Assembly: GCA_903930515.1 (NCBI GenBank)
Contig: CAIYYW010000292.1
Span: forward strand, 1 to 17,533
Reading direction: 5' to 3'
DNA: 17,533 bases
Source of the DNA: an uncultured delta proteobacterium
GTDB lineage: Bacteria > RBG-13-61-14 > DRUE01
Below the pieces are notes generated by a model, which was given only the letters and a program-made list of their open reading frames with translations, did not search any database and was not told the DNA's origin. The translations under genes and the position numbers were made by a program. This document shows, one piece after another, positions 3,519 through 12,470 of the stretch. Every line of letters starts with the position of its first letter. Within the stretch, counting starts at the first letter, position 1.

Positions 3519-4649
3519 ATGAAGTACGGGTTGATCTACAACCATGAGTTCGCCCAGTTCAGTTTCGGGGAAAACCATCCATTCAAGCTGGCGCGGGGCG
3601 AGCGTTTTTATCAGCTCCTGGAGCGGAACCAGCTCTTGTCCGATCCCGAGATTGATCTGATCCGGTCGGGGCCGGCTCCGGAGGAATTGCTGCTGGTGGC
3701 TCACAGCCCGGCCTACCTCAAGGCATTGAAAGAAGCGGACTCCGGGGAGTTCAAGCTGGAGATGCTCCAGTTCGGCCTGGGCAGCGAGGACTGCCCGGTT
3801 TTTCCGGGGGTTTATCAATTTTCGCGGCTGGCCTGCGGCGCCAGTTTTGAGGCCGCATATCGGGTGATGGAGGGCCGGCATAATTTTGTCTTCAATCCCA
3901 TCGGCGGGTTCCATCACGCCCAGCGCTCGTTCGCCGAGGGCTTCTGCTATGTCAACGACATCAACCTGATCGCGCGGCTGATCCTGTTGCAGGGATATAA
4001 AATCGCCTACCTGGATTTTGACGCCCATCACGGCAACGGGGTCCAGGACGAGTTTTATTCCGATCCGAATTTCCTGTTTGTGTCTTTCCACGAGAACGGC
4101 AAGTATTTATATCCCGGCACCGGGTTTGAAACCGAGATCGGCCAGGGGCTGGGCGAGGGCTTAAAGGTCAATGTGCCGATGGAGCCGGGCGCGGACGACG
4201 AGGTTTTTTCCTACCTCTACAAGGAGACCGTCCCGCCCCTGCTGGACGCGTTCAAGCCTGATTTCGGGATCGTGCTGTTCGGGGCGGACCCGATGCTGGC
4301 CGACCCGCTCACCCATCTCAGGCTGTCCAATAACTCCTTCGCCGATGTCGCGTATGATCTGAACCAGCGGTTCAAATCCTGGATCGGCCTGGGCGCCGGC
4401 GGGTACAACCTGGAGGAGACCGCCCGGACCTGGGCCTTGATCTGGGCAACCATCACCGGCCAGGAGAATGAATCCGATCTGGCCGCCCTGGGAGGGGTGT
4501 TCCGGGGAAGTTCCGAGTTGGGGGCGTCCGGCTTTCGCGATATGCGCGGATATTCCAGCGGGCCGGAAAAGGACCGGGCGATGGAAGAGGCGAGAAGAGT
4601 GGCCGGATATCTCAAGCGGAACATTTTTCCCAAGGTGGGCGCTAAATGA
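3519..4649 (+). CDS. HDAC/AcuC-like zinc deacetylase (arginase-deacetylase superfamily)
   Basis: A 376-residue hydrolase of the class I/II histone-deacetylase family, expected to remove acetyl or other acyl groups from lysines or small amines. All active-site elements are visible: the H132-H133 dyad in GGFHHA, zinc ligands D168 and H170 in DFDAHHGNG, the third ligand D257 in FGADPMLADPL, and the catalytic tyrosine Y296 in GAGGYNLEETARTW. Every one sits exactly 10 residues before its counterpart in human HDAC8 (142/143, 178, 180, 267, 306). The ATG at 3519 is chosen because MKYGLIYNHE is a typical family N terminus; the frame is open back to 3408 but that part overlaps the TPR gene. The stop overlaps the next start (ATGA at 4646), so it is probably co-made with the CoA-transferase-GNAT protein. 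In Bacillus, the related AcuC deacetylates acetyl-CoA synthetase. Confidence 0.92.
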   Translation: MKYGLIYNHEFAQFSFGENHPFKLARGERFYQLLERNQLLSDPEIDLIRSGPAPEELLLVAHSPAYLKALKEADSGEFKLEMLQFGLGSEDCPVFPGVYQFSRLACGASFEAAYRVMEGRHNFVFNPIGGFHHAQRSFAEGFCYVNDINLIARLILLQGYKIAYLDFDAHHGNGVQDEFYSDPNFLFVSFHENGKYLYPGTGFETEIGQGLGEGLKVNVPMEPGADDEVFSYLYKETVPPLLDAFKPDFGIVLFGADPMLADPLTHLRLSNNSFADVAYDLNQRFKSWIGLGAGGYNLEETARTWALIWATITGQENESDLAALGGVFRGSSELGASGFRDMRGYSSGPEKDRAMEEARRVAGYLKRNIFPKVGAK

Positions 4650-6514
4650 ATCAGAAATTGACGGAGTTGTATCATTCAAAATTGTTAAGCCCGGAAGCGG
4701 CGATTGACCGGATCCAGCCGGGCGCGCACATCTTTATCGGAACCGCTTGCGGGGAGCCCCAGGCACTGACCCGGGCGCTGGTGGAAAAAGGGGAACGGAT
4801 TGAAGACGCGATGCTGTTCCATTTCCTGACCCTGAGCCAGGCTCCCTATGCCCAGGCCCAGTTCGCGTTCCGGTTCCGGCCCAACACCTTTTTCATCGGG
4901 CCCGGCACCCGGGAGGCCCTGGCCGAGGGCCGCGCCGACTATATCCCGATTATGCTGAGCGAGATTCCGAGGTTGATCAAATCCGGCAGGCTCAGAGTGG
5001 ATGTGGCCTTGATCCAGCTCTCGGCCCCGGACGAGCACGGGTTTTGCTCGCTCGGCGTGAGCGTGGACATCACCAAGGCGGCGACCGAGGCGGCCGGCCT
5101 GGTGATCGCCCAGCTCAACCCGAAAATGCCGCGAACCCTCGGAGACGGTTTCGTGCATCTGGACGACCTGGATTTGATCGTGGAATGCGACGAGCCGATC
5201 CTGGAATATTCTTACCCGGCCGCGGACGCGGTGCAGATGAAGGTTGCGGAGAACATCGCCAAGCTGGTGGAAAACGAATCCACCCTGGAAATGGGGATCG
5301 GAACCATCCCGGACGCCGTGCTCAAGTTCCTGGTTGACCGCAAAGACCTGGGGGTCCATACCGAAGTTTTCTCCGACGGGATCATGGACCTGATTGAAAA
5401 AGGCGTGATCAACAACCGCAAGAAAACCATTCATCCCGGCAAGATCATCTCCAGCTTCGCGATGGGCTCGGCCCGTCTTTATCAGATGCTCAACAACAAC
5501 CCGCGCTTTGAATTCCATCCCGCGGACTATGTCAACGACCCGTTCGTGATCGCCCGGAACCATAAGATGGTCGCGATCAATGTGGCGCTGGAAGTGGACT
5601 TGACCGGGCAGGTCAACGCCGATTCCATCGGCACCAAGTTTTATTCCGGCATCGGCGGCCAGGCCGATTTCATCCGGGGAGCCGCGCTGTCTAAAAACGG
5701 CAAGCCGATCATCGCGCTCCCGAGCACGGCCAAGGGAGGCAAGGTCAGCCGGATCGTTCCCCGCCTGGCCGAAGGCGCCGGGGTGATCACCACCCGCGGG
5801 GATGTGCATTATGTGGTGACCGAATACGGGATCGCATATATCCACGGCAAGAGCATCCGCGAGCGGTCCCTGAACCTGATCAATATCGCGCATCCGGATT
5901 TCCGGGAGGGTCTGCTCAAGGCCGCCAAGGGAATGAACTATGTTTACGCGGACCAGAAACTGCCGCCGCCCGGGGCGATCTATCCGGAGGACCTGGAGAC
6001 TTTTTTCACCAACCGGACCGGGCTTAAATATTTGATCCGGCCGATCCGGGTGGACGACGAGGAATTTCTGAGGGAGATGTTTTACGATTTGTCCGACCAG
6101 AGCAAATATCTTCGTTTCTTCTCCGCAATGCGCGCGCTCCCTCATTTGAAGGCCCAATTGCAGGTCCTGATTGACTATGACGAGCGGATGGCCATCGGCG
6201 CCTTTCAGGGGGAACGGCCCGGGGAGAAGCTGCTGGGGGTGGCGAGATACATCCTGGACCGGAGGACCAATATGGCGGAGGTGGCGGTGGAGGTCCCGGA
6301 CCAGTGGCAGGGACAGGGGATCGGGACCTTCCTGCTCAATTACCTGATCCAGATCGCCAAGACCAAAGGCCTGACCGGGTTCACCGCGATGGTGTTGGTG
6401 GAGAACCGGAAGATGATGCGGATCCTTCATGAAACCGGCTATAAGATGAAAACCAAATTTGAGGAAGGGGCCTACGAGGTTGAGTTCAGGTTTGACGACC
6501 TGGCGGAAAAATAA
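4646..6514 (+). CDS. Acetyl-CoA hydrolase/CoA-transferase fused to a GNAT acetyltransferase domain
   Basis: A 622-residue fusion. Residues 1 to about 435 are a family I CoA-transferase of the acetyl-CoA hydrolase/4-hydroxybutyrate CoA-transferase type: FIGTACGEPQAL near the N terminus, the LGVHTE motif with E240 as the likely catalytic glutamate (the position that forms the glutamyl-CoA thioester in this family), and SGIGGQADF around 334-342. Residues ~463-615 are a GNAT domain beginning YLIRPIRVDDEEF and carrying acetyl-CoA-binding motif A, QWQGQGIGT (553-561, fitting Q/RxxGxG), then a VLVENRKMMRILHETGYK segment typical of the GNAT C terminus. The fusion could couple acyl-CoA formation to acylation of a protein, much as Pat joins an acyl-CoA-synthetase-like domain to GNAT. 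The acid substrates and the acylated target cannot be told from sequence. It starts inside the deacetylase stop codon. Confidence 0.92.
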   Translation: MNQKLTELYHSKLLSPEAAIDRIQPGAHIFIGTACGEPQALTRALVEKGERIEDAMLFHFLTLSQAPYAQAQFAFRFRPNTFFIGPGTREALAEGRADYIPIMLSEIPRLIKSGRLRVDVALIQLSAPDEHGFCSLGVSVDITKAATEAAGLVIAQLNPKMPRTLGDGFVHLDDLDLIVECDEPILEYSYPAADAVQMKVAENIAKLVENESTLEMGIGTIPDAVLKFLVDRKDLGVHTEVFSDGIMDLIEKGVINNRKKTIHPGKIISSFAMGSARLYQMLNNNPRFEFHPADYVNDPFVIARNHKMVAINVALEVDLTGQVNADSIGTKFYSGIGGQADFIRGAALSKNGKPIIALPSTAKGGKVSRIVPRLAEGAGVITTRGDVHYVVTEYGIAYIHGKSIRERSLNLINIAHPDFREGLLKAAKGMNYVYADQKLPPPGAIYPEDLETFFTNRTGLKYLIRPIRVDDEEFLREMFYDLSDQSKYLRFFSAMRALPHLKAQLQVLIDYDERMAIGAFQGERPGEKLLGVARYILDRRTNMAEVAVEVPDQWQGQGIGTFLLNYLIQIAKTKGLTGFTAMVLVENRKMMRILHETGYKMKTKFEEGAYEVEFRFDDLAEK

Positions 6515-6528
6515 ACCGGAGGGAAAAA

Positions 6529-7644
6529 ATGTCGGTGAAGATAAGAAAAGTGGAAACCAAATCAGATTTGGATCAGTTCCTCAACCTGGACCATAAAATT
6601 TACGCCGGCGATCCCTTCTGGGTGCCGCCGCTTTTGTTTGATCTCAAGCGGAGATTGGACCGGAAGGCCAACGCCTATTTTGAGCACGCCCGGGCCGAGT
6701 ATTTCCTGGCCGAGAAAAACGGGCAGCCGGCCGGCCGGATCAGCGCGCAGGTGGACGATCATTACTTTCAGCATTGGAACGAAAAGGTCGGCCATTTCGG
6801 TTTTTTTGAAACGATCAACGACCCGGAAGTCGGCGCCGCGCTTCTGGATACGGCCGCGGACTGGCTGAAAAAACAGGGGCAGGTCAAGATGCACGGCCCG
6901 TATAATTTCACGGTCAACGACGAGTGCGGCCTGTTGGTGGACGGCTTTAAACTTCCGCCGATGATGCTGATGACTTATAACCCGAAGTATTACCAGACCT
7001 TGGTGGAATCATTCGGAATGACCAAGGCCATGGACCTGCTTGCATATCGCACCGAAGCGAACACCGACCCGGACCCGGCAGTGGTCAATTTCGCGGAACT
7101 GCTCAAGCAAAGACATGACATTACCGTCCGGAATATGAGTTGGCTGAACTTTGACCAACAACTGGACTGGTTCGTGGAAATTTATAATTCCGCCTGGGAG
7201 AAAAACTGGGGTATGGTTTCGCTCACCGAAAAAGAACTGCGCGCCCATTCCGCGGAACTCCGGTTTCTCGCCTTCCGCTTCCCCGAGCTTAATTTCTTCG
7301 CCCTTTCCCGCGGAAAGCCGGTCGGGATGAGCATCACCATCCCCAATCTGAACGAATTGATCATCAAGATGAAAGGGAAACTGCTCACCCCCCAGGCCCT
7401 CGGCATATTCACCCACAAGTTTGAATCCTGCCGCGTGTTCGCGCTCGGGGTCAAGGAAGAATATCGCCGCTTCGGGGTCGGAGCGATCTTCTATGTGGAA
7501 ACCCTGAAGGCCGCGCGCCGGATGGGCTTCAAATGGGGGGAGATGAGCTGGATCCTGGAAAACAACGGCCCGATGAGACGCGCCATTGAGCGGATGGGCG
7601 GGGTGGTCTATAAAACCTACCGCATCTACGAAAAAAACCTCTGA
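6529..7644 (+). CDS. GNAT-superfamily protein, YghO-like, function unknown
   Basis: A 371-residue soluble protein, third gene of the acylation operon, 14 bp after the CoA-transferase-GNAT gene with a GGAGGG Shine-Dalgarno (6518-6523) five bases before the ATG. The C-terminal part has a GNAT core: VGMSITIPNL strand region, then FALGVKEEYRRFGVGAIFYVETL with RRFGVGA as the acetyl-CoA pyrophosphate loop, then a WILENNGPMRRAIERMGG helix. The N-terminal half (FLNLDHKIYAGDPFWVPPL... and MHGPYNFTVNDECGLLVDGF) resembles the large GNAT-like proteins related to E. coli YghO, probably a second degenerate GNAT fold. The substrate is unknown: it could acylate a protein, an amine or a lipid intermediate. 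Its place in the operon suggests it uses or controls acyl-CoA made by its neighbour; that is inference. Confidence 0.75.
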   Translation: MSVKIRKVETKSDLDQFLNLDHKIYAGDPFWVPPLLFDLKRRLDRKANAYFEHARAEYFLAEKNGQPAGRISAQVDDHYFQHWNEKVGHFGFFETINDPEVGAALLDTAADWLKKQGQVKMHGPYNFTVNDECGLLVDGFKLPPMMLMTYNPKYYQTLVESFGMTKAMDLLAYRTEANTDPDPAVVNFAELLKQRHDITVRNMSWLNFDQQLDWFVEIYNSAWEKNWGMVSLTEKELRAHSAELRFLAFRFPELNFFALSRGKPVGMSITIPNLNELIIKMKGKLLTPQALGIFTHKFESCRVFALGVKEEYRRFGVGAIFYVETLKAARRMGFKWGEMSWILENNGPMRRAIERMGGVVYKTYRIYEKNL

Positions 7645-7695: not shown

Positions 7696-10600
7696 TTAAT
7701 TCGGGCAGGATGCCGGATGCGCGCGAATGGATTCCGTGGGCAGGGGTTTGCGCGGAAGATTTCTGGAAAGGGGCTGGAGCCGATCCACCTGGATGGAGAT
7801 CGCGCCCAAATCGGAAGTGACGGTCCCGAAGATCAGATGCGCGCTGTCGCTCCGGAGCAGGTGGCAATACCTGCGGTAAGCCTCCGGGAAGAAAACCGTT
7901 TCGTAAATATCGGTTTCGTCTTCAAACGAAACGAATTCCATCGGCTCGCCTTCTCCGGTTTCGGTGAGCTTGCCCGTGACGCATACGCCCGCGGCGACAA
8001 TCCTTTCCCCGATCCGGTTCCGGAAATCCCCGGCCGGGGTGATCCGGAATTTTTTTATCTGATCCCGGTATAAGGAGAGCAGGGGGCAAGAGATCAAAAA
8101 TCCCAAACCCTCTTCCTCCTGCCGGAGCCGGTCGGATTCCGCGAGCTTCCGGACCGATCCCGGAACTTTAGCCGCATCCTGGAATAAACCGGACTGTCCC
8201 CGGGGCCGGGACCGGGACCAATGATTGATGATCCAGAACAGTTGGGGCCGATTCTCCGCGCCAAAAAGATCGTCAAAGCATCCGGCCTTGACCAGAATCC
8301 CGGCCTGCTCCGGGGCCGGGTCCACCCGGTCCAGAAATTCCAACAGGCTCCCATACCGGCCGTTTTTTTCCCGCTCCGCGATCAGGCGTTCCGCGAATTT
8401 TTTCTCCAAACCCTTGACCTGCATCAGCCCCACCCGGATCGCGTCCCCTTCCGCGGTATATTCAAAACGGCTCCCGTTGATCTCCGGCATTCTGATGGAA
8501 AGCCCCATCCGCCTGGCCTCGGAAAGATAGGCGGAGGCGGAATAATATCCGCCCTGGTTGGAGATCACGCCGGCGATGAATTCCGCGGGATGATGGGCTT
8601 TGAGGAAAGCGCTTTTGAACGAGACCAGGGCGTAGCTCGCGGAATGGGGCTTGCAAAAGCTGTATCCCTGAAAGGATTCAATCATCTCCCAGACGCTTTC
8701 CGACTGCTCTTCGCTCAGGCCGTTTTTGACCGCGCCGACCTGGAATTTTCGCTTAAGCTCCGAAAGCTTTTTCGCCCGGTGTTTCTTGCTCAGCGACCGG
8801 CGGAGCTCATCCGCCTCTTCCACCCTGAACCCGGCCAACTCAATCGCGGCCTTCATCACATCCTCCTGGTAAACCATAATCCCATAGGTCTCGGAAAGAA
8901 GTTGGTCCAGCCTGGGATGGATCGGCTCCCATTTTTCTCCCCGCAATCGCTTAACATATTCGGCGATCCATTTATGCGCGGCCGGACGGATGATACTGCT
9001 GTGGATCACGATATGCTCAAAATCCCCGGCCTTGGTTTTTTCCTGGAGCTGGCGCGTGGCCGGGGACTCAAGATAAAAAACCCCCATCGTTTTGCCCGCG
9101 GCGATCAGTTGTTTTGTCTTTGGGTCGTCCAGCGGATTGAGCCGGGTGTAGTCCAGCCCCAGCCCTTGCTTTTTATTCAACCGGTTAATGCCGTCCCGGA
9201 TCACGGCCAAAGACCGGTTCCCGAGCAGGTCCAGCTTGATCAATCCCGCGTCCTCGGTCTGGTCCTTTTCCCACTGGATAATGTTCACGCCCTTGGCCGC
9301 GACCTGGACCGGGACCCGGTCCTGGATCCGCTCCGCGATCACCACCCCTCCGCAATGCACGGACATTCCGCAAGGAAGCCCTTCCAGCTTAAGCGCGAGT
9401 TCAATGATTTGGTCCCAGGGCGGGTCAAAATGAACGCCCCGGAAGAGCGGGTTCTTTTTCATCTCCCCGGTCGGCAAGAGCAGATCCAAAAAACCGCGCA
9501 TCCTTTCGGTCACCCGGGAAATTTCCGCCTCCGTCATCCCGAACACCCGGGCAACCTGACGGATCGCGGCCCGGCTCTGGAAGCAGAGGTGGTTGGAAAC
9601 CATTGCCGCCCGCTCCGATCCGTAGCGGTTGAACACATAGGCCAGGGCGGCGTCCCGCTCGTCCCACGGGAAATCCAGATCAATATCCGGAGGGTCCTTC
9701 CGGCCCGGGGAGAGGAACCTTTCAAAGAACAGGTTGTGACGAATCGGGTCCACCTGGGTGATGAACAGGCAGTAGCTGACGATGCTCGCGGCCGCGCTGC
9801 CCCTTCCGCAGGTGATCGGGAAGCGCCGGACAATGTCGTCAATGATCAGGAAATATGACGCGAACCCTTTGTCCCGGATCAGCCGCAATTCTTTTTCCAG
9901 CCGGGACTGAATCTCGGCCGTGAATTCGCCATATCTTTTACGCGCCCCCTCCCGGGCCTTTAGCGAGAGCAGAAGAAAACCGTCCTCCCGGCTCATCCCG
10001 CCGAAATCAAAAAGCACCGTCTCCCCCCAGGGAGCCTTGGGCAGGGCGCATTTCTCCATCAGCTCGTCAAGGTTTTGGAGCGGGGACGGGAAGGCGCGAT
10101 ACCAATTTTTAAATTCTTCCGGCGTCGGCATCCAGGCCGGATCAGTGACCAACTGCTCCGGCTTCACCCCGGAGACGCTCTGGTTCAGGCCGATCGCGCG
10201 GAGCAGATGATGCAAAGACCGGTCTTCTTTTTTCAGGTAGTAAACCGGGTTGCCGGCCACCGGCTTCAAATGATGGCTGGCCGCGAACCGGCCGGAGCGG
10301 TGAAGCTGATCCGGGGTGATGATGAAATAAAAATCCAGGCCCGGGACCGGAGCGAGGAACAGCGCGAGCGGTTCCTGGTTGGTGAGCGCGCAAAGGCCGT
10401 CGCAGGGTTGGGAAAGCTCGGCGCGCAGGGAAAAGTTTTCTTCCAGATGCCGGCGGGATAAAATCCGGCAAAGTTTTTTATAGCCCTCTTTGCTCTTCAC
10501 CAGCAGGACCGCGGACTCTCCGGATTCGTCCCTCAACTCCGCTCCCAGGATCGGCCGAATCCCAGCCTCTTCAGCCATCTGCCGGAACCAGACCGATCCG

Positions 10601-10731
10601 TAAATCCCGTTCCAGTCCGTGAGCGCAAGATTTTTCCAGCCCATGCTCGCCGCGGATTCCACCAGTTGTTCCAGCCCAGCCGTTCCCTGGTGGAAGGAAT
10701 ACCCGGAATGAACCCAGATCAGGCCGGACAT
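7696..10731 (-). CDS. dnaE2: Error-prone DNA polymerase III alpha subunit, DnaE2/ImuC type
   Basis: A 1011-residue C-family DNA polymerase that extends past lesions in the SOS response. The N-terminal PHP domain begins WVHSGYSFHQG and contains LALTDWNGIYG. The palm contains GRGSAAAS (~309-316), PPDIDLDF with catalytic D349 and D351, and IKLDLLG with the third acid D501, matching the D401/D403/D555 triad of E. coli DnaE. A late OB-fold region reads MEFVSFEDETDIYETVFFPEAY. It is shorter than replicative DnaE (~1160 residues) and slightly shorter than typical DnaE2 (~1050-1080). The first His of the PHP HxH motif is replaced by Trp (W6-V7-H8), so this PHP domain is unlikely to act as a metal-dependent nuclease. 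Its ATG lies 13 bp inside the end of imuB, and the context (lexA, imuB) supports DnaE2 over a replicative enzyme. Confidence 0.92.
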   Translation of the reverse strand: MSGLIWVHSGYSFHQGTAGLEQLVESAASMGWKNLALTDWNGIYGSVWFRQMAEEAGIRPILGAELRDESGESAVLLVKSKEGYKKLCRILSRRHLEENFSLRAELSQPCDGLCALTNQEPLALFLAPVPGLDFYFIITPDQLHRSGRFAASHHLKPVAGNPVYYLKKEDRSLHHLLRAIGLNQSVSGVKPEQLVTDPAWMPTPEEFKNWYRAFPSPLQNLDELMEKCALPKAPWGETVLFDFGGMSREDGFLLLSLKAREGARKRYGEFTAEIQSRLEKELRLIRDKGFASYFLIIDDIVRRFPITCGRGSAAASIVSYCLFITQVDPIRHNLFFERFLSPGRKDPPDIDLDFPWDERDAALAYVFNRYGSERAAMVSNHLCFQSRAAIRQVARVFGMTEAEISRVTERMRGFLDLLLPTGEMKKNPLFRGVHFDPPWDQIIELALKLEGLPCGMSVHCGGVVIAERIQDRVPVQVAAKGVNIIQWEKDQTEDAGLIKLDLLGNRSLAVIRDGINRLNKKQGLGLDYTRLNPLDDPKTKQLIAAGKTMGVFYLESPATRQLQEKTKAGDFEHIVIHSSIIRPAAHKWIAEYVKRLRGEKWEPIHPRLDQLLSETYGIMVYQEDVMKAAIELAGFRVEEADELRRSLSKKHRAKKLSELKRKFQVGAVKNGLSEEQSESVWEMIESFQGYSFCKPHSASYALVSFKSAFLKAHHPAEFIAGVISNQGGYYSASAYLSEARRMGLSIRMPEINGSRFEYTAEGDAIRVGLMQVKGLEKKFAERLIAEREKNGRYGSLLEFLDRVDPAPEQAGILVKAGCFDDLFGAENRPQLFWIINHWSRSRPRGQSGLFQDAAKVPGSVRKLAESDRLRQEEEGLGFLISCPLLSLYRDQIKKFRITPAGDFRNRIGERIVAAGVCVTGKLTETGEGEPMEFVSFEDETDIYETVFFPEAYRRYCHLLRSDSAHLIFGTVTSDLGAISIQVDRLQPLSRNLPRKPLPTESIRAHPASCPN

Positions 10732-11870
10732 AACTGATCCCCAAACCGGATCGCGTTCTCGCCATACCGGTTCCGGACCCGGTCCAGGGCCTGATAGAGC
10801 CGGGCCTGATGTTCGGTTTCGCCGAATAAATCCGGCTGATACCCGGGCGCCAGGCGCGATGCCCGCAACCCGAGATAGATCACCTGGACCCGGCGGTAAA
10901 GCGCGCTTTCCAGCAAACCCAGCGCGCTTTGGTAAATCTCGCGGTCAAACGCGGTGGGCCTCCGCAGGCGCATCCTCCTCTCCGCTCCTTTGCCGTCCCG
11001 GAAAACCAGGAGCAACCTGAGCCGGCTCGCGCTCAATTTTCTTTCCCGCAAACTTTTTCCCAGCTTGATGGAAAACCGCCGGAGCAGGTCCCGGATCAGA
11101 TCAAGGTCATTGGTCGCCTGCGCCAGACTCTCTCCCTGTTCCAGTTCCGGGCTGGATTCCTGAGGGGTCACCGGCGAGAAATCAACCCCCTGTGCCAGCA
11201 GATGGAGCCGGGATCCGTCCCGGCCGAATGCCGAGACCAACTCGGAAGAAGAAAGCGCCTGCAGGTCCGAGACCAGCTCCAGGCCGAGTTCGGAAAGGCG
11301 CTCGGATAAATCGCGCTCCCGGCTCAGGATTTTTCTGAGCGGAAAGGGCTTGAGAAAAATGGCCTCCTGGTCCGGCATCACCTGGGCCAAGCCCGGAACC
11401 CCGGCTATGGAGCAGACCGTTTTCCCCACCAGCTTGCTCGCGCCGATCCCGGCCGAACTCACCAGCCGATAGCGCCGATCCAGCCCTTGCAGGAGTTGGT
11501 CCGCAACCTCCAAACCCGGCCCGAGCAATCTTTCCGTGCCGGAAAGGTCTATGAAGAACCCGTTTTGGGTTTGCTCCACCAGCGGGCTCAGGTCGGAAAG
11601 GAATTCTTTAACTTGAACCTTTGCCCGGTAAAACAGCTCGGGACGGGGAGTGAAAACCTCCAACCCTTTGCAAAAACGTCTCGCCTCGGCCAGGATCATC
11701 CCCGGCCGGATTCCCTCGGTTTGGGCCCGGGGGTTGGCGGATAAAATACGGCTGGCCGATGAATCCATCCCGCAGAGCGCCGCGGGCCGGTCCAGGAATT
11801 TGCCCCGGTTGCCGATCAACACCTGGAGCGGAAACGACGGGAATAACAGATGCAAAATCTCTCGCTTCAT
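10719..11870 (-). CDS. imuB: ImuB-like Y-family polymerase homologue, catalytically inactive scaffold
   Basis: A 383-residue DinB/UmuC-fold protein. Recognisable Y-family parts are the GIRPGMILAEAR helix, the SAGIGASKLVGK segment, the little-finger region and a C-terminal ALDRVRNRYGENAIRFG. The catalytic carboxylates are missing: the first motif (HxDMDxFFA in DinB) reads HLLFPSFPL, with L9 at the Asp position, and the DE pair before the LDLTG strand is replaced by N103-G104 ahead of FFIDLSG. This is the hallmark of ImuB, which does not polymerise but recruits DnaE2 to the sliding clamp. A clamp-binding-like QPDLF lies at 345-349, where ImuB proteins carry it. It starts 15 bp after lexA with a GGAG ribosome-binding site and overlaps dnaE2 by 13 bp. 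No imuA lies between them. Confidence 0.88.
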   Translation of the reverse strand: MKREILHLLFPSFPLQVLIGNRGKFLDRPAALCGMDSSASRILSANPRAQTEGIRPGMILAEARRFCKGLEVFTPRPELFYRAKVQVKEFLSDLSPLVEQTQNGFFIDLSGTERLLGPGLEVADQLLQGLDRRYRLVSSAGIGASKLVGKTVCSIAGVPGLAQVMPDQEAIFLKPFPLRKILSRERDLSERLSELGLELVSDLQALSSSELVSAFGRDGSRLHLLAQGVDFSPVTPQESSPELEQGESLAQATNDLDLIRDLLRRFSIKLGKSLRERKLSASRLRLLLVFRDGKGAERRMRLRRPTAFDREIYQSALGLLESALYRRVQVIYLGLRASRLAPGYQPDLFGETEHQARLYQALDRVRNRYGENAIRFGDQLCPA

Positions 11871-11885
11871 GATCGTCTCCGGGAA

Positions 11886-12470
11886 TCAATAGCTTCGGAA
11901 CAGCGCCACCACCACGCCCAGAATTTTTACCCGGTTCTCTTTTGATACAATCGGCTGATACGCGGGATTGGCAGGGATCAACTCTATCTTTGAGCCGGTC
12001 CTCCGATACTTCTTCACCGTGGCCTCCCCGTCCACCAACGCCACCACCACTTCCCCGTTCTCCGCGGCCTCCTGCTTCCGCACCACGATCAAGTCCCGGT
12101 CCATAATGCCTTCCCCGGTCATTGATTCCCCGCGCACCCGCAAAGCGAAATGGTTCTCCGGATCAAAAATCCCGCTCGGAAGCTCAACCGGCTCCGGCAC
12201 TTCATACGATTCCACCGGGAACCCGGCCTGAACCTCGCCCAGAAGCAAAAGACCGGCCGGCCGGCTCAACAACGAAAGCGACCGCTTCTGGTTGCTAAAA
12301 CTTGAGCGCAAATATCCCTTGGCCGAAAGCTGGTGCAGGTGATAGGAAACCGTGTTCAGGCTGTTCAGGCCCAGCCCCTCCCGGATCTCCTGATAGCTCG
12401 GCGCGTAGCCCTTCCGCTCCACAAAACGCCGCAGCCATTCATAAACCTGCTTCTGCTTTTTGCTCAGCAT
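11886..12470 (-). CDS. lexA: LexA SOS repressor
   Basis: A 194-residue repressor and self-cleaving serine protease. Residues 1-65 are the winged helix: MLSKKQKQVYEWLRRFVERKG, recognition-helix region SLNTVSYHLHQLSAKG. The protease half has the A82-G83 cleavage site in VQAGFPVES, nucleophile S116 in RGESMTGEGI and the general-base lysine K153 in ATVKKYRR; spacing agrees with E. coli LexA (84/85, 119, 156). RecA-filament-stimulated cleavage should derepress this operon. The ATG at 12470 is the only start consistent with the family N terminus, because the frame upstream soon meets a stop. It heads lexA-imuB-dnaE2 and probably represses its own promoter through the palindrome just upstream. The recognition-helix residues differ from E. 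coli, in line with a different operator. Confidence 0.95.
   Translation of the reverse strand: MLSKKQKQVYEWLRRFVERKGYAPSYQEIREGLGLNSLNTVSYHLHQLSAKGYLRSSFSNQKRSLSLLSRPAGLLLLGEVQAGFPVESYEVPEPVELPSGIFDPENHFALRVRGESMTGEGIMDRDLIVVRKQEAAENGEVVVALVDGEATVKKYRRTGSKIELIPANPAYQPIVSKENRVKILGVVVALFRSY

Follow-up and report, generated by a model that had tools for sequence, protein, structure and literature searches.

Reversible acetylation of acetyl-CoA synthetase (Acs) is the best-known case of bacterial metabolic control through lysine acetylation. In Bacillus, a GNAT writer and the deacetylase AcuC are encoded together in the acuABC operon, divergent from acsA. In the type I/II Pat proteins the GNAT domain is joined to a synthetase domain that is catalytically dead, yet binds acetyl-CoA (PMC8556138). 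Five types of GNAT are distinguished in reviews, and a CoA-transferase domain occurs in none of them (PMC8556138). Our search of open-licence papers found neither a CoA-transferase/GNAT fusion nor an acetyltransferase and a deacetylase in one chain described, and no activity was reported there for any CoA-transferase/GNAT fusion.

Here, we analyzed a stretch of 17,533 nucleotides from an uncultured delta proteobacterium (the window), which is the whole of contig C292 of a metagenome assembly (3.65 Mb, 401 contigs). An earlier note, made from the sequence alone, had described three genes in it as an acylation operon. All three genes are real, with the overlap of 4 bp and the spacing of 14 bp given in that note. 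The features are as follows.

3519 to 4649, + strand: HDAC, an AcuC-like zinc-dependent lysine deacetylase and probable eraser (376 aa; PF00850, 6e-76)
4646 to 6514, + strand: CoA-transferase/GNAT fusion, the probable writer (622 aa)
4670 to 5926, + strand: CoA-transferase domain of the fusion, 4-hydroxybutyrate CoA-transferase type (residues 9-427; matches to 9vag and 3gk7)
5363 to 5365, + strand: codon of E240, the catalytic Glu of the CoA-transferase, in LGVHTE
5981 to 6487, + strand: Pat-type GNAT domain of the fusion (residues 446-614; matches to 4nxy and 4u5y)
6529 to 7644, + strand: third gene, encoding a YghO-family GNAT-fold protein (371 aa; PF00583, 2e-8)

We consider it likely that acyl-CoA synthetases are controlled by a reversible lysine-acetylation switch, with the HDAC as eraser, the fusion as writer and the CoA-transferase domain as a coupler.

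Gene structure and domain content of the locus

The HDAC starts with the ATG at 3519, and its stop codon has the 4 bp ATGA in common with the start of the fusion. The third gene starts 14 bp past the fusion and has a GGAGG ribosome site. For comparison at the phylum level, three genomes were used (the window's own genome, G001 and G002). The sister genome G001 has HDAC, fusion and third gene in the same order, spread over two broken contigs. On the first contig the HDAC (L018:232-1362; 84% identity to the window HDAC) runs into the fusion, and on the second the fusion (82% identity) is followed by the third gene (73%). The ATGA overlap is retained in G001, and the outer neighbours differ from those in the window. 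Thus, the adjacency of the three genes is not due to chance, and an explanation by chance neighbours is also ruled out by the link between HDAC and fusion in other phyla. In G002 (Deltaproteobacteria bacterium RBG_13_61_14), which belongs to the same order, two solitary fusions were present and a relative of the third gene was located elsewhere. The second of these fusions (L014:6564-8471) no longer has the catalytic Glu (HTE to HSP), a further sign that the CoA-transferase domain can become non-catalytic.

The operon had been called self-contained. Its order is indeed kept in the sister genome, but a TPR gene on the same strand ends 38 bp upstream of the HDAC in the window and makes self-containment less sure; this gene is absent from that position in the sister genome. 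The TPR gene is overlapped by a gene for a cysteine-rich protein of 266 aa (674-1474), for which no Pfam or NCBIfam match was obtained. At 7696-12470 on the - strand of the window, LexA, an ImuB-like polymerase and a DnaE-type polymerase form an SOS mutagenesis cassette with no visible imuA.

The six catalytic residues of the HDAC named in the earlier note (H132, H133, D168, H170, D257 and Y296) are all present, and the zinc and proton-relay residues of the Hist_deacetyl domain are complete. The zinc ligands D168, H170 and D257 correspond to D170, H172 and D259 of Geobacillus AcuC (PMC13039410). In our tree, the annotated Anoxybacillus AcuC, which comes from an acsA/acuABC locus and is 37% identical to the window HDAC, falls into one clade (100/100) with the window HDAC and every linked HDAC. 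This AcuC clade does not include the second HDAC encoded in the window's own genome. A search of NCBIfam returned no equivalog for the HDAC. Judged by these comparisons, the protein is probably an AcuC-like lysine deacetylase and the predicted eraser.

In the fusion, Pfam detects PF02550 and PF13336 over residues 9-427 and PF00583 over residues 502-598. The best PDB match of the CoA-transferase domain was 9vag (1e-153). A model of the fusion was built from 25 sequences (pLDDT 84.6); its N-terminal part matches 4-hydroxybutyrate CoA-transferases (fold match 3gk7, TMt 0.92). The top GNAT match of the C-terminal part was 4u5y (TMt 0.91, 34% identity), which is the S. lividans Pat GNAT in complex with the C-terminal domain of acetyl-CoA synthetase. 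Also by sequence, the best solved relatives of the GNAT are S. lividans Pat, E. coli PatZ and mycobacterial Pat (4nxy at 1e-18), all of them lysine acetyltransferases, and comparison with AcuA gave no significant match. Motif A (QGQGIG) is intact, and E545 in MAEVAV presumably serves as catalytic Glu. The fusion shares with Type I Pat a C-terminal Pat-type GNAT with catalytic Glu and acetyl-CoA motif, but its other domain is a CoA-transferase. We conclude that its GNAT is Pat-type and the probable writer. E240 in LGVHTE was confirmed as well, as was motif A, and does not vary among 25 aligned fusions without an attached HDAC. As E240 is intact, the transferase is probably active in the window copy.

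Linkage of HDAC and fusion across phyla

The fusion was surveyed with its linker and GNAT part as query against 84,980 species genomes, which revealed at least 570 related stretches. The best 80 of these came from Deltaproteobacteria, Smithella, Bipolaricaulota, Methanothrix, Thermoplasmata, Phycisphaerae, Latescibacterota and others. It has a wide distribution among anaerobes, syntrophs and archaea, in which control of acyl-CoA activation bears on energy balance. An HDAC was found in three of the best 80 loci (L083, L091 and L102), all from Planctomycetota, and was absent from the other 77 within the stretch fetched.

Among 294 Planctomycetota genomes, 14 encode a close match to the window HDAC (E at most 1e-60) and 36 encode the fusion. 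Both occurred together in 10 genomes, versus 1.7 expected (Fisher p = 1.6e-7, with shared ancestry ignored). In seven of the 14 HDAC-bearing genomes the fusion adjoins the HDAC or is joined to it. An eighth linked genome (G186) has the order HDAC, Acd (NDP-forming acyl-CoA synthetase), fusion, with Acd as the one gene between, and in two further genomes the HDAC runs directly into Acd. Such an HDAC was also detected in 7 of 282 Myxococcota and 83 of 345 Desulfobacterota genomes. At the 30 Desulfobacterota HDAC loci looked at, no fusion was found within 1.5 kb of the HDAC; Acs is divergent to one of these HDACs and upstream of another. Latescibacterota, a phylum with a close relative of the fusion, had this HDAC type in none of 64 genomes. 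In Methanotrichaceae (L146:6139-7820), an AcuC-clade HDAC is convergent with a free-standing Pat-type GNAT that is 38% identical to the GNAT of the fusion.

In a tree of 56 fusions, the HDAC-linked state requires four changes, and the triple fusions (described below), the window and the Planctomycetota lie apart. The HDAC trees (77 and 48 rows) likewise contain at least three changes of the linked state that are forced by starred branches. Because linked members are scattered on both trees, the link does not go back to one recent event, with gain and loss being indistinguishable. The HDAC-fusion pair is a recurring unit. The earlier note had proposed co-occurrence of all three families as a check; HDAC and fusion do co-occur, but the third gene rarely accompanies them.

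A GNAT domain is all that Pfam finds in the third gene product, and NCBIfam gave no equivalog for it. Over its full length it is 35-37% identical to plasmid-encoded YghO proteins. In Pseudomonas veronii, a plasmid-borne YghO gene clusters with an AOS-family synthase annotated as 8-amino-7-oxononanoate synthase, and relatives of the third gene in three other genomes (G013, G064 and G150) each adjoin a similar synthase. We take such clusters to be sphingolipid-making, with the GNAT-like acyltransferase presumably serving as ceramide synthase. The acyltransferase bCerS has been confirmed as a member of the sphingolipid pathway in a paper that does not name YghO. YghO-family genes beside serine-palmitoyltransferase-like genes were observed in Eisenbacteria and Planctomycetota (L224, L225 and L226), and sphingolipid synthesis may extend to these groups. 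In the window's own genome (93% complete) no serine palmitoyltransferase (SPT) was found, the sole SPT-like match being BioF in a biotin operon, and ceramide synthesis by the third gene in this organism is therefore unsupported. A function as second lysine acetyltransferase was rejected as the default, since the relatives are YghO proteins encoded beside serine-palmitoyltransferase-like genes. The family of the third gene was present in none of the best 80 fusion neighbourhoods, so that the three families do not form one conserved set, and beyond the genus no locus was found that combines it with HDAC or fusion. Thus the third gene, which had been counted as a member of the loop, probably stands outside it; position within one genus, and nothing else, ties it to protein acetylation.

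Neighbouring synthetases and candidate targets

Acd is the commonest neighbour of the fusion. It was found nearby in 31 of the best 80 loci, mostly directly downstream and often overlapping the fusion. In 14 of these 31 loci Acd is followed by a DRTGG/AAA_26 protein. This arrangement is conserved from Bipolaricaulota to archaea and is apparently uncharacterised; in the sister genome (L019), too, a paralogous fusion is followed by Acd and then by the DRTGG/AAA_26 protein. In six Thermoplasmata loci (L025, L026, L027, L030, L035 and L044), an endonuclease IV-like gene lies less than 50 bp after the fusion and a small conserved gene of about 100 aa precedes it.

The three Planctomycetota loci with an HDAC have the order Acd, fusion, HDAC, together with a convergent transporter gene and an AMP-forming Acs. 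The Acs genes convergent with these blocks keep the PKTRSGKIMRR sequence. The window's own genome encodes two true Acs, and the acetylatable PKTRSGK motif is found in each. In one of them (L104, 632 aa), Lys589 of this motif is the predicted site. Both Acs genes are located on other contigs, and neither Acs nor Acd is found near the HDAC-fusion pair in the window. The assignment of a target is therefore carried over from other phyla.

We infer the biochemistry of the switch, that is its target, the direction of control and the sensor role, from these comparisons. With acyl-CoA as donor, the GNAT would place an acetyl (or short acyl) group on the conserved catalytic lysine of acyl-CoA synthetases, with AMP-forming Acs as the likeliest target. 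At high acetyl-CoA, acetylation of Acs-type enzymes by the GNAT would turn acid activation off. The AcuC-like HDAC would strip the acyl group and bring the synthetases back on. The CoA-transferase domain would tie the writer to the acyl-CoA/acid balance, most likely as a sensor or scaffold, by analogy with the dead NDP-forming synthetase domain of type I/II Pat.

The frequent and often overlapping Acd could also be read differently. The fusion might be mainly a metabolic CoA-transferase under feedback from its own GNAT, which would acetylate the transferase or the partner Acd. The HDAC would then be the dedicated deacetylase of the fusion, and Acs would not be the main target. Acd retains its catalytic SHTG His, and in the window's own genome Acd lies downstream of a paralogous fusion, in an arrangement divided between contigs C145 and C288 (L015 and L016); both observations speak for such feedback. 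We nevertheless regard it as unlikely, because the GNAT resembles Pat, an acetylator of AMP-forming synthetases, and because in two Planctomycetota loci (L171 and L172) the HDAC is found beside a transporter and Acs while the fusion is located elsewhere.

One-chain proteins and comparison with known systems

Six genomes, two from Planctomycetota and four from Myxococcota, encode CoA-transferase, GNAT and HDAC in one open frame of about 1000 aa (triple fusions).

L162:7835-10858, - strand: triple fusion of G077, Planctomycetota (1007 aa)
L163:3168-6176, + strand: triple fusion of G249, Planctomycetota (1002 aa)
L227:5199-8216, + strand: triple fusion of G726, Myxococcota (1005 aa)
L228:5631-8939, + strand: triple fusion of G921, Myxococcota
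L229 and L230: triple fusions of G966 and G951, Myxococcota, both cut by contig ends

Three of these chains were analyzed with Pfam. Each gave matches for the CoA-transferase and HDAC domains, and two of them also for the GNAT. In the G077 protein the GNAT was missed by Pfam and found by tblastn and alignment. All six triple fusions retain a full set of HDAC residues together with the GNAT Glu. In each of the six, the CoA-transferase Glu is replaced (by D in five, by M in one). The pair apparently needs no transferase chemistry, as this residue is replaced throughout. Transferase chemistry has probably been given up where writer and eraser became physically joined, and a sensor role for the CoA-transferase domain fits better than recycling. 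In the window copy with its intact E240, CoA exchange may persist, and in the triple fusions the domain would serve as sensor or scaffold.

Recycling had been the core of the earlier note's proposal, in which the HDAC frees acid, an active CoA-transferase re-forms acyl-CoA and the GNAT re-modifies a target, perhaps the transferase itself. The catalytic Glu in the window and in 25 of 25 aligned fusions not joined to HDAC is in line with such a cycle, and CoA-transferases of syntrophs are heavily lysine-acylated (PMC9676460). However, it is in the triple fusions that the tightest coupling would be expected, and these have lost the Glu while keeping the HDAC and GNAT residues. Moreover, the acid from one deacetylation would be negligible against the cellular acetate pool, and in many loci the fusion is accompanied by Acd and not by HDAC. 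The recycling step is therefore not supported, and the cycle as a whole appears improbable. Certain bacterial HDAC-fold enzymes use acetylpolyamines, but it is most improbable that the HDAC is a hydrolase of acetylpolyamines or other small amides, brought close to the GNAT fusion by general acetate metabolism without a protein-acetylation switch, since it groups with AcuC apart from the other HDAC encoded in the genome, carries the class-I Asp clamp (D91) and a Leu instead of Glu at the gatekeeper position (positions whose significance we presume from work on HDAC8 and HDAC10), and is joined to a Pat-type GNAT in the triple fusions.

A reversible acetylation switch thus remains our preferred reading. 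The earlier proposal of a different build of the loop known from Pat and AcuA/AcuC holds up in this respect: the GNAT is Pat-type, the HDAC belongs to the AcuC clade, the pair lies near Acd or Acs in other phyla, and all three domains occur in single proteins. Whether this amounts to an undescribed class of switch, with a Pat-type writer and an AcuC-type eraser as a unit under a CoA-transferase-derived sensor, and with one trifunctional protein writing and erasing the same mark in some Planctomycetota and Myxococcota, is in our judgement evenly balanced. If true, the joining of writer and eraser in a single chain would make a switch of an unusual kind, similar to bifunctional kinase/phosphatases. 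One could then test how a mark's two opposed activities are prevented from interfering with each other, and what is sensed by the synthetase-like domain of Pat and by the transferase domain here.

Among known proteins, the third gene product resembles YghO and bacterial ceramide synthase-like proteins, but it is encoded next to HDAC and fusion, whereas its relatives adjoin serine-palmitoyltransferase-like genes. The N-terminal 427 residues of the fusion are about 40-50% identical to 4-hydroxybutyrate and butyryl-CoA:acetate CoA-transferases, with the catalytic Glu kept. In contrast to these enzymes the fusion has an extra C-terminal GNAT, and it reaches 298 bits against the butyryl-CoA transferase equivalog model (cut-off 675). 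The HDAC-fusion loci mirror the acsA/acuABC layout of Bacillus (PMC13121692, PMC13039410). In both, the writer is a GNAT whose gene belongs to the same operon as an AcuC-clade HDAC, neighbouring genes share an ATGA overlap, and in other phyla the pair is also found beside Acs. Unlike in Bacillus, AcuB (CBS-ACT) is missing from the window, Acs is not adjacent in the own genome, and the GNAT is Pat-like rather than AcuA-like and fused to a CoA-transferase. With type I/II Pat (S. enterica Pat, E. coli PatZ and S. lividans PatA), the fusion shares the attachment of a Pat-type GNAT to a large acyl-CoA-metabolising domain, and the triple fusions share the loss of the catalytic residue in this partner domain. 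The partner in Pat is an NDP-forming acyl-CoA synthetase, whereas here it is a CoA-transferase (PF02550/PF13336) and the HDAC is adjacent or fused.
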